DNA from: Clostridia bacterium
GTDB taxonomy: Bacteria; Bacillota; Clostridia; UBA1381; UBA9506
Direction: 5' to 3'
Assembly: GCA_017407515.1 (NCBI GenBank)
Contig: JAFQWH010000031.1
Span: forward strand, 1 to 32,846
DNA: 32,846 nt
The notes beneath the pieces were generated by a model. The model was not told the DNA's origin. It ran no database searches and saw only the letters and a program-made list of their open reading frames with translations. Positions 1 through 31,586 of the stretch are shown here, one piece after another. Position 1 is the first letter of the stretch. Each line of letters starts with the position of its first letter. The translations under genes were made by a program, and so were the position numbers.

Positions 1-204
1 ACAGCAACCTGCCCCAACTGTAAAATTGCTTGCTCCGTTTTAGATAAAGCCGGCGTTTCCTACGAAAAGCTTTTGGCTAACGAAAACGCAGAGCTGGCAA
101 CCAAGCTTGGCGTTAAGCAGGCACCGACGCTGGTTATCGTAAAAGACGGCGGCGTTGCAAAATACCACGGTGTTTCTGACATTAAGAAACTGGTTCAGGC
201 GTGA
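1..204 (+). CDS. Thioredoxin-fold domain, C-terminal part of a truncated gene
   Basis: The reading frame is open from the first base and ends at a TGA, giving 67 residues with no start codon in the window. It begins just before a CPNC redox motif (ATCPNCKIACS), continues with a helix, and carries the cis-proline region QAPTLVIV, which is the thioredoxin/glutaredoxin pattern. The CPxC pair would exchange disulfides with a reductase or a substrate. From memory of the families, a tail like this is fused to the anaerobic ribonucleoside-triphosphate reductase (NrdD) of many Clostridia, so this may be the end of nrdD; a stand-alone thioredoxin is equally compatible with what is visible. The thioredoxin reductase gene starts 10 bp downstream, which suggests one operon and that TrxB reduces this domain. 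Confidence 0.75.
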   Translation, partial: TATCPNCKIACSVLDKAGVSYEKLLANENAELATKLGVKQAPTLVIVKDGGVAKYHGVSDIKKLVQA

Positions 205-214
205 GGATAGCACT

Positions 215-1114
215 ATGTATGATATTATCATTATCGGCGGCGGCCCTGCGGGGCTGACCGCCGCCTTATATGCCCGCAGGGCAAATAAAACCGTTTTAGT
301 TATTGAAAAAGGCACTTTTGGCGGACAAATTACCTTTTCTCCCAAGGTGGAAAACATTCCCGGCTTTGCTCTCGTTACCGGTAACGAGTTTGCCGAAAAA
401 CTGGTGGAACAGGTGCTCGCACTCGAGGCTGAAGTTGAATGTGCCGAAGTGCTTTCTATAAAAGACGGTGAAGTCAAAACCGTTGTAACAGACAGCGGTG
501 AATTCCAGGCTAAAACTGTTATCATCGCAACCGGTGCAAAGCACAGACTGTTAGGCCTTGAAAAGGAAGAAGCTATGGTAGGTAACGGTATTTCTTTCTG
601 TGCAGTTTGTGACGGTGCGTTCTATGAAGGTAAAACCGTTGCGGTTATCGGCGGCGGTAACTCAGCACTGCAGGAGGCACTGCTACTGGCTGAAACCTCA
701 AAAAAGGTGTATGTTGTGCAGAATCTTGACTTCTTCACCGGTGAGGACAAGCTGGTTGAACAGCTTAAAACCAAGGCTAACGTCGAGGTTATTCTCGGCA
801 CAGTGGTAGAAAGCCTGTTAGGTGAAGACGAGCTGACCGGTATTGTTATGCGTCGGGTTTCGGACAATGAAGTAACAGAGCTCGCTGTTGACGGAATGTT
901 CGTTGCCATAGGCTTGATTCCGCAGAACGAGGCGTTTGCAGACGTAATTACCTTAAACGAAATGGGCTATGCTGATTCCGGCGAGGATTGCCTGACCACG
1001 GCACCCGGCATTTTTGTTGCCGGAGACTGCCGTTCTAAACGAATTCGTCAGGTGACAACGGCTGCGGCAGACGGTGCTATTGCGGCACTTGCGGCTTGTA
1101 ACTATATTGGATAA
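215..1114 (+). CDS. trxB: Thioredoxin-disulfide reductase
   Basis: This 299-residue flavoprotein would move electrons from NADPH through FAD to thioredoxin in the cytoplasm. The N-terminal FAD-binding motif GGGPAGLTAALYA lies at about residues 8-20. The catalytic CAVC pair (FCAVCDGAF) is near residue 130, and the NADPH-binding GGGNSALQEA motif follows. The C-terminal FAD motif (GIFVAGDC) is present, so the protein looks complete and near the usual 300-320 residues. I chose the ATG at 215 rather than the upstream in-frame ATG at 155, because MYDIIIIGGG is the normal N-terminus and GAGG lies just ahead of it. It follows the thioredoxin-fold gene by 10 bp and is closed by a strong terminator. 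Confidence 0.95.
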   Translation: MYDIIIIGGGPAGLTAALYARRANKTVLVIEKGTFGGQITFSPKVENIPGFALVTGNEFAEKLVEQVLALEAEVECAEVLSIKDGEVKTVVTDSGEFQAKTVIIATGAKHRLLGLEKEEAMVGNGISFCAVCDGAFYEGKTVAVIGGGNSALQEALLLAETSKKVYVVQNLDFFTGEDKLVEQLKTKANVEVILGTVVESLLGEDELTGIVMRRVSDNEVTELAVDGMFVAIGLIPQNEAFADVITLNEMGYADSGEDCLTTAPGIFVAGDCRSKRIRQVTTAAADGAIAALAACNYIG

Positions 1115-1121
1115 GAAATAA

Positions 1122-1163
1122 GAGGCTGTGGCAAGATGAAATCATTTTGCTACAGCCTCTTTT
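1122..1163 (+). terminator. Rho-independent terminator after trxB
   Basis: Two 18-base arms (1122-1139 and 1142-1159) are complementary throughout except for two G:U pairs, and TTTT follows. It lies 7 bp past the trxB stop. The right arm and T-run recur at 1373-1393 on the far side of the repeat element. Confidence 0.9.
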
Positions 1164-1372
1164 AGGGATGGACGCAAAATAGTGCAGATTGGATAAACTG
1201 AATCCCGCCGGCGTACGCTGGTACGCCTAGAGGTGAAGTTTATTCAAAGCACAAAGCGTTTTTTTGAAATTCGTTGTATAACGAATTTCTACATTAACTT
1301 TTTCAACTTTTTCTTTCTTATTTTGTTGTCCACTTTAAAAATTGGCTTTACTCTAGCTTTGTGTGGTCTGTG
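1164..1372 (+). repeat. Structured repeat element, copy 1
   Basis: This non-coding stretch matches, in inverted orientation, the sequence at about 30860-31053. The best conserved block is 1182-1256, where GTGCAGATTGGATAAACTGA and AGTTTATTCAAAGCACAAAG are identical or nearly so in both copies. Three structural parts are visible. First, TTGGATAAACT pairs with AAGTTTATTCAA around an inner hairpin GGCGTAC/GTACGCC (1210-1227). Second, CACAAAGC (1249-1256) pairs with GCTTTGTG (1356-1363). Third, inside that lies GAAATTCGTT/AACGAATTTC (1266-1289). The 3' end GGTCTGTG is shared with copy 2. The flanks 1143-1163 and 1373-1393 are identical 21-bp direct repeats. A 63-codon frame inside it has no gene-like features. 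Confidence 0.8.
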
Positions 1373-1519
1373 CATTTTGCTACAGCCTCTTTTTTTGTTT
1401 GATTTTTTGGGGGCTGTGTGGTAGAATGAAGTTAACAGAGTAGGGATTGACATACAGACAGTCAGGAACGCCTGCCTCTACGAAGAAAGAATGGAATATT
1501 TTATTCAGGGGGACCAGTA

Positions 1520-2218
1520 GTGATTAATTATGCACACAGGGGTGCAAGTGAATATGCACCGGAAAATACCTTATCTTCCTTTTATCTTGGGCTGATTCAG
1601 GGAGCAAATGGAATAGAAACTGATGTTCAAAGAACAAAAGACGGCGTTTTGGTATTGTTCCATGATGATACGATAGATAGAATTACTGATGGAAAAGGTA
1701 GCCTTTCAGACTATACCTTAGAAGAAATAAAGAAATTAAAAGTATATGGAAACAGCACCACTTGGTTTTATGACAGCGTCGTTACGCTGAGAGAATTTTT
1801 AGAAAAGTTTGCGGCTTATGATATAAAATTTGCGATTGAACTTAAAGGAGCGGGTGTGGAAGAGGACACTCTTTCTATGGTAAAGGAGTTTGGGGCTTTT
1901 GAAAAAACCACATTCACAAGCTTTGATTTTAATTATATTAAAAAAATTAAGGAACTTGATAAAGCTGCAAGGATAGGTTGGCTTACAGAAAATCCCGGTG
2001 AAAAAGAAATAGAAGAAATTCTGAATATTTCAGGCGAAGAAATGGCACCAAAAGCAGAGTATATCACGGAGGATATGGTGAAAAAGCTGCGTAGTAAAGG
2101 TCTGGGAATAAGAGCATGGGGCGTTTCTAATGTATCCCTTATGAAAAAAATGTGTATGCTAAATATTGATGGCATGACAGTGAATTTTCCGGACAGATTA
2201 TATCAATATTTACGTTAA
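1520..2218 (+). CDS. Glycerophosphodiester phosphodiesterase family protein
   Basis: The 232-residue protein belongs to the GDPD TIM-barrel family, which hydrolyses glycerophosphodiesters to sn-glycerol 3-phosphate and an alcohol. The catalytic signature is at the N-terminus: AHRGASEYAPENT (residues 5-17), then GIETDVQRTKDGVLVLFHDD with the metal-binding Glu and Asp and the second catalytic His. No signal peptide is seen, so a cytoplasmic UgpQ-like enzyme is likely. The start is a GTG preceded by a G-rich Shine-Dalgarno (CAGGGGGA). Codons are visibly more A/T-rich than those of the neighbouring ligase and trxB genes, and the gene sits between two repeat elements; both suggest acquisition, though this is inference. 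The stretch 1394-1519 before it holds no other gene that I can see. Confidence 0.9.
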   Translation: MINYAHRGASEYAPENTLSSFYLGLIQGANGIETDVQRTKDGVLVLFHDDTIDRITDGKGSLSDYTLEEIKKLKVYGNSTTWFYDSVVTLREFLEKFAAYDIKFAIELKGAGVEEDTLSMVKEFGAFEKTTFTSFDFNYIKKIKELDKAARIGWLTENPGEKEIEEILNISGEEMAPKAEYITEDMVKKLRSKGLGIRAWGVSNVSLMKKMCMLNIDGMTVNFPDRLYQYLR

Positions 2219-29188: not shown

Positions 29189-30832
<1,644 letters not shown>

Positions 30833-30859
30833 GATAGGCCAAATAAAAAACGGCACAGA

Positions 30860-31053
30860 CCGCACAAAGCATACCATTATCATGATAATGGTTAGGCAAG
30901 CGTTTTACAAATTAAAAGTAATGAAGGAATTCGCTTTAGCGAATTCCTTTTTTATATGCTTTGTGCTTTGAATAAACTTCGCCTCTTGCTGTACCTGTGT
31001 ACAGCGTCGGGACTCAGTTTATCCAATCTGCACCATTTTTTTGTTTGGCCGAT
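30860..31053 (-). repeat. Structured repeat element, copy 2 (inverted relative to copy 1)
   Basis: Read on the minus strand this matches copy 1 at 1164-1372. The conserved block is 30957-31033. The inner hairpin GCTGTAC/GTACAGC (30988-31005) differs from copy 1 by two compensating pairs. The second hairpin GGAATTCGC/GCGAATTCC (30926-30947) also covaries with its counterpart. The closing stem is CACAAAGCAT with ATGCTTTGTG, and inside it lies the perfect 20-bp palindrome ACCATTATCATGATAATGGT (30873-30892). Flanks 30843-30859 and 31054-31070 are the identical direct repeat ATAAAAAACGGCACAGA. No gene is seen here. Confidence 0.8.
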
Positions 31054-31510: not shown

Positions 31511-31586
31511 GCTGGTGTGGCTCAGTCGGTAGAGCAGCTGATTCGTAATCAGCAGATCGTCGGTTCAAGTCCGATCACCAGCTCCA
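31511..31586 (+). tRNA. tRNA-Thr (anticodon CGT)
   Basis: The 76-base cloverleaf has acceptor arms GCTGGTG/CACCAGC, D arm GCTC/GAGC, anticodon arm GCTGA/TCAGC with loop TTCGTAA, and T arm GTCGG/CCGAT with loop TTCAAGT. The anticodon CGT reads ACG (Thr). The discriminator is U and the CCA end is encoded. It has its own promoter and terminator. Confidence 0.97.

Follow-up and report, generated by a model that had tools for sequence, protein, structure and literature searches.

A folded repeat of roughly 200 bp occurs twice in the window, the 32 846-nucleotide stretch of clostridial DNA analysed here, and raises the question of what kind of element it is and what keeps it folded. An earlier note, made from the sequence alone, had described the two copies as inverted, had pointed to paired base changes in their hairpins and had taken these as a sign of selection on the structure, whether as DNA hairpin or as RNA. 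Here, we find that the repeat belongs to an apparently undescribed family of dispersed small DNA repeats in uncultured Clostridia, in which one branched fold is kept as the sequence changes. The placement of the element at stop codons, its true closing stem, the asymmetry between its strands and its spread across the class are not reported in that note.

Both copies are present in the window and lie in inverted orientation, as claimed; they form the longest inverted repeat in the window, pairing 1176–1257 with 30958–31039 (82 nt, 87%). The positions first assigned to them were correct but the extents were too short, and the fuller limits are listed in table 1. The element folds as a three-way junction, in which a long stem, P0, closes the structure and two arms branch off, one conserved (P1) and one variable (P2). 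All the stems named earlier exist in the sequence, and it is their placement that needs revision: TTGGATAAACT/AAGTTTATTCAA is a real helix, but rather than an outer stem it is the base of side arm P1, while CACAAAGC/GCTTTGTG, described as a second closing stem, is likewise real and forms the base of the second side arm, P2. The longer closing stem that carries both arms, P0 (GCAAAATAGTGCAGA/TCTGTGCATTTTGC), had been overlooked. In copy 1 it pairs GGGATGGACGCAAAATAGTGCAGA with TCTGTGCATTTTGCTACAGCCTC, interrupted by small internal loops, and encloses P1 and P2 as siblings; the complementarity of its two arms, B and C, is preserved between loci. P1 is the most conserved part of the element (alignments A1, A2 and A5), and across the family conservation resides in P1 and the junction. 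P2 varies, holding a GAATTC-type hairpin in copy 1 and shrinking to a mere mini-loop in the minimal elements of 112–118 nt that occur in several genera. The folding energy of each copy beats all 200 of its dinucleotide shuffles (z-scores in table 1). Variants of P1 were also observed: an extra hairpin stands in the 5′ side of its internal loop at four loci (L007 1647–1750, L063, L073 and L130), and at L127 (601–674) P1 is a near-perfect palindrome, recognised by the model on either strand (71.6 and 47.5 bits).

Table 1. Coordinates of the repeat and its surroundings in the window. R1, covariance model of the 74-nt P1 core; z, folding energy relative to dinucleotide shuffles.
Feature	Position	Strand	Details
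Pyr_redox gene, flank of copy 1	155..1114	+	Pfam
Palindromic terminator-like hairpin upstream of copy 1	1121..1163	+	descending arm repeats arm C (GAGGCTGTGGCAAGATGAAATCATTTTGCTACAGCCTCTTTT)
Copy 1 (P0 + P1 + P2)	1164..1390	+	R1 core 1182–1255, 99.3 bits; fold z −4.9
Copy 1, P0 5′ arm (B)	1164..1188	+	AGGGATGGACGCAAAATAGTGCAGA; pairs with 1367–1390
Copy 1, P1 arm	1189..1247	+	TTGGATAAACT/AGTTTATTCAA helix, tandem G.A step, GGCGTAC/GTACGCC hairpin
Copy 1, P2 arm	1250..1363	+	CACAAAGC/GCTTTGTG closing stem
Hairpin in copy 1 P2	1266..1289	+	GAAATTCGTT/AACGAATTTC
Copy 1, P0 3′ arm (C)	1367..1390	+	TCTGTGCATTTTGCTACAGCCTCT
GDPD gene, flank of copy 1	1520..2218	+	Pfam
groEL	29204..30832	+	Pfam; stop codon 3 nt from copy 2, opposite strand
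Copy 2	30836..31051	−	R1 core 30960–31033, 100.8 bits; fold z −10.6
tRNA-Thr (CGT), close to copy 2	31511..31586		

The paired changes between the two copies are borne out, both in the inner hairpin (GGCGTAC/GTACGCC in one, GCTGTAC/GTACAGC in the other) and in the next one (GAAATTCGTT/AACGAATTTC against GGAATTCGCT/AGCGAATTCC), and the inference that the structure is selected is supported by covariation counts that exceed those of shuffled controls. Among 16 short elements, 91.4% of cells pair and 26 of the 42 pairs are changed on both sides, with a covariation score of 0.455 compared with 0.176 when shuffled; none of 500 shuffles reaches the observed score, and sliding the partners lowers pairing to 32–45%. 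An alignment of 34 rows, drawn mostly from distant genomes, behaves in the same way (92.7% paired, 33/42 pairs changed on both sides, score 0.457 versus 0.173, 0/500 shuffles), and across both alignments pairing drops from 91–93% to 32–47% in the slid controls. Each alignment has its own bias. The 34 rows were fitted to R2, a model built from the minimal elements and slightly longer forms, which favours structure; the 16 elements were aligned by plain MAFFT and their arm C was located by its pairing with arm B, which favours P0, although pairing in P1 is independent of this step. All seven of the outermost P0 pairs vary on both sides, and the ends of the element are thus defined by pairing and not by sequence. 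Independent variation at the paired positions, which would have refuted the selection of the structure, did not occur.

The two strands are not equivalent. Non-Watson–Crick pairs in P1, read on the strand on which the repeat was described, are G.T rather than A.C in a ratio of 191 : 9, and the whole fold in distant families has 100 G.T against 17 A.C pairs; copy 2 folds with −92.9 kcal mol−1 on this strand and with −83.3 on the other. Because G.U outnumbers A.C here, this strand is the folding one, be it RNA or single-stranded DNA, and it is the strand that the earlier note had named.

Searches with covariance models yielded the dozens of dispersed copies with preserved pairing that were expected of a new family, and the opposite outcome, an absence of further copies, did not arise: there are about 10 in the genome and many in relatives. 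In the window's genome, searching with DNA turned up 14 sequences that match either the element or the terminator-like flank, and R1 recognised 10 clear copies, two of them in the window. The same model found the element in 45 of the 61 genomes of the order, at up to 37 copies per genome (37 in G047), and in none of 298 further genomes from the class and phylum. Copies may also form tandem arrays, with a period of approximately 215 bp in G008 and approximately 114 bp in G001. The restriction to the order that R1 alone suggested was rejected, since R2 has matches across the class, in 51 of 391 Clostridia genomes spread over many families; carriers often have several copies each, and the true per-genome numbers are at least those counted. 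An exact-pattern scan returned named hosts that were mostly ruminant-gut Clostridia and Oscillospiraceae assemblies. Where hits in other phyla were tested with the model, it failed to support them. A phage origin was dismissed, as there were three exact pattern hits in viral contigs and the model confirmed none.

The family also turns over, as joined-flank searches in relatives reveal. A clean empty site in G006 lies opposite the copy at L003, decayed remnants occupy the smpB locus in two relatives, another locus retains a solo right end, and ordinary terminators stand in for three of the G047 copies. Subfamilies are lineage-specific, remnants decay at orthologous spots, and copies inside some genomes (G004, for example) are more alike than copies between species. 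This is how elements that are amplified and then decay would look. Insertions between near-identical strains were not seen, and what related species show is decay or clean absence; the flanks of the copies have no constant target-site duplication, and clean empty sites are few.

The position of the element relative to genes is highly constrained. In 120 of 131 contexts, determined by simple ORF calling, the gene beyond arm C lies on the opposite strand, and its stop codon is separated from the element by a median of 2 nt. On the arm B side, the median distance to the neighbouring gene is 69–96 nt, and that gene may have either orientation. At 85 of 106 distinct junctions, the distance from the element to the stop codon is between −6 and +10 nt. 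Copy 2 is typical in this respect, being 3 nt from the groEL stop codon, and copy 1 is one of the 11 orientation exceptions, in which the next gene is on the same strand. The adjacent genes are unrelated, including groEL, smpB, rpmA, rpmB, fusA, ileS and alaS-like genes; they were identified by eye from translations, with a Pfam check only for groEL and the genes flanking copy 1 in the window. In several same-strand gene pairs, the element stands just before the apparent ribosome-binding site of the next gene and is probably co-transcribed. The element apparently supplies the stop codon of the adjacent gene, as a TAG or TAA inside its end, at L065, L098, L110, L140, L143, L147 and L433. Targeting of a replication strand was rejected, given that in 92% of cases the element is oriented according to the gene next to it; we infer, without a measurement, that this is more than the replication bias of genes alone would usually produce.

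Many copies in the genus adjoin a palindromic terminator, one arm of which resembles arm C; it is frequent in the genus but not a general part of the family. This repeated palindrome (GGGGCTGTAGCAAAATG...CATTTTGCTACAGCCCC) is used dozens of times in the carriers G004, G006 and G000, and the hairpin upstream of copy 1 is an instance of it. Its pattern has 69, 49 and 13 matches in these three genomes, respectively, counts that take in the elements' own arms, compared with none in G003 and two in G009, the two non-carriers tested in the genus. The palindromic terminator may itself be a second, REP-like repeat.

We give an even chance to the reading of the element as a non-autonomous, mobile small interspersed repeat of 112–240 bp that acts as a folded single strand, which would account for its dispersed and tandem copies, its subfamilies, the freely changing outer stem and the difference between strands. 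The mechanism is inferred: an enzyme of the host, or another trans-acting enzyme, would recognise the folded strand, mainly through P1 and the junction, as single-stranded DNA, and the same enzyme, so far unidentified, would insert it at gene ends, while insertions elsewhere would be removed by selection. Against this stand the lack of any mobiliser, the want of a constant target-site duplication and of insertions between near-identical strains, and the fact that strand-specific folding fits RNA equally well. It is a more doubtful proposition, offered tentatively, that the repeats are class-wide selfish elements whose folded single strand is moved by an unrecognised enzyme targeting gene ends (stop codons or terminators) with near-nucleotide precision and in a fixed orientation. 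The main rival is an RNA transcribed from the folding strand and running antisense to the 3′ end of the adjacent gene, for instance as a barrier to antisense transcription or as a small RNA amplified by recombination. G.U wobbles and tandem G.A steps are typical of RNA, placement at stop codons would fit a barrier, and a T-rich stretch follows arm C (T frequencies of 64% and 67% at its first two nucleotides) in the manner of an intrinsic terminator, but this enrichment is irregular and the T-run is weak or missing in many copies. Furthermore, no conserved promoter was seen by eye (no statistical test was applied), and a terminator has no need of so elaborate and conserved a P1; a functional RNA is possible, although we would not expect it.

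Fixed orientation, a distance of 0–4 nt to the stop codon and the probable co-transcription in same-strand pairs could also suit a 3′-UTR element of the adjacent gene's mRNA, involved in translation termination, mRNA stability or termination. We regard this as improbable: the mRNA has the sequence of the less favourable strand, on which the conserved G.U pairs become A.C mismatches and copy 2 folds less well, and the adjacent genes have no shared function. An ordinary MITE, that is, the deletion derivative of an insertion sequence whose movement depends on a DDE transposase binding terminal inverted repeats, would be small, intergenic and dispersed and would show terminal inverted complementarity, as the element does. 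However, the terminal sequences differ wholly between subfamilies while remaining complementary, so that there are no sequence-conserved terminal inverted repeats; the conserved part lies inside the element, which keeps a fixed orientation towards the neighbouring gene, and neither an autonomous relative nor a recurrent gene was found beside copies (no genome-wide DDE search was made). We regard a MITE of this kind, too, as improbable. A riboswitch or attenuator, suggested by the A-B-C arms, was rejected because arm A is not general and because there is mostly no downstream gene on the folding strand.

The search for a mobiliser of the folded single-strand repeat that we favour has been negative. 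For each of Y1 transposase, reverse transcriptase, IS110 and TnpB there are several nearly complete, high-copy genomes that lack it, although some of the genomes are incomplete assemblies and single absences are therefore weak evidence. An IS200/REP type was rejected since Y1 genes do not follow copy number and have no copies of the element on their flanks, IS110 and TnpB were rejected as mobilisers since their presence does not track the element, and a retroelement or group II derivative was rejected for the lack of reverse transcriptase in the genus and in the 37-copy genome. No ORF family recurs beside copies, other than ORFs read through the element itself; a peptide read from P1 (MDKLNPEGV...) was discarded, as indels in other copies break the frame. 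A divergent Y1/RAYT-like protein of approximately 175 amino acids (KRKPTRLKGYDYS...MPNHIHL) is encoded at L244, L233, L235 and L237, where the flanks contain neither the element nor obvious repeats.

The earlier note knew of no named element with this sequence, and nor do we: Rfam reports only tRNA above the gathering threshold in the window and no match to the element above that threshold in eight copies (E-values up to 5), and no description was found in the literature searched. Without an Rfam model, the family is likely to escape annotation in abundant gut bacteria. Features unusual for a family of interspersed repeats are its covariation across the class and its placement at stop codons. 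With a fold conserved across many Clostridia families, a known folding strand and tight placement at stop codons, it offers a testable case for the movement of non-autonomous elements that lack matching transposase ends, and for the sites at which they are tolerated.

Integron attC sites also fold from one strand, with an outer helix, an unpaired spacer, an inner helix and an extrahelical base, and they keep pairing as arm sequences vary and form tandem arrays. The element shares this layout only (one-strand fold, varying paired arms, tandem arrays); no R or L box sequence and no cassette genes are apparent, and its copies are scattered at gene ends. Group IIC introns insert beside terminator hairpins in a fixed orientation, as the element does, yet the element is only 112–240 nt long, shows no intron domains in Rfam and lacks the reverse transcriptase noted above. 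REP, BIME and REPIN repeats, associated with RAYT transposases, are dispersed extragenic palindromes (PMC2817692, PMC3733652, PMC3116915), and flanking ORFs often take their stop codon from a REP end (PMC3733652), as happens here with some copies of the element; recognition of a folded single strand is a suggested further parallel. REPs, however, are palindromes of 20–40 bp tagged GTAG or CGTC, whereas the element is a three-way junction of 112–240 nt without a constant tag (GTAG occurs only in some subfamilies), and Y1/RAYT-like genes are missing in many of its carriers. The BOX, RUP and SPRITE repeats of Streptococcus pneumoniae are small and dispersed, enriched between convergent genes, predicted to fold as RNA and modular, with tandem boxB, and are considered non-autonomous mobile elements (PMC3049150). 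By analogy, the element would work most like BOX or REP repeats, although the definition of a REP is not met; BOX repeats are defined by the boxA-boxB(n)-boxC modules of streptococci. The likeness to BOX, RUP and SPRITE, drawn without a BOX alignment, lies in small size, dispersion, folding, modular or tandem structure and presumed non-autonomous mobility; the element differs in sequence, fold and host group, and is distinguished by class-wide covariation, a defined folding strand and, in most copies, a single orientation close to the stop codon.
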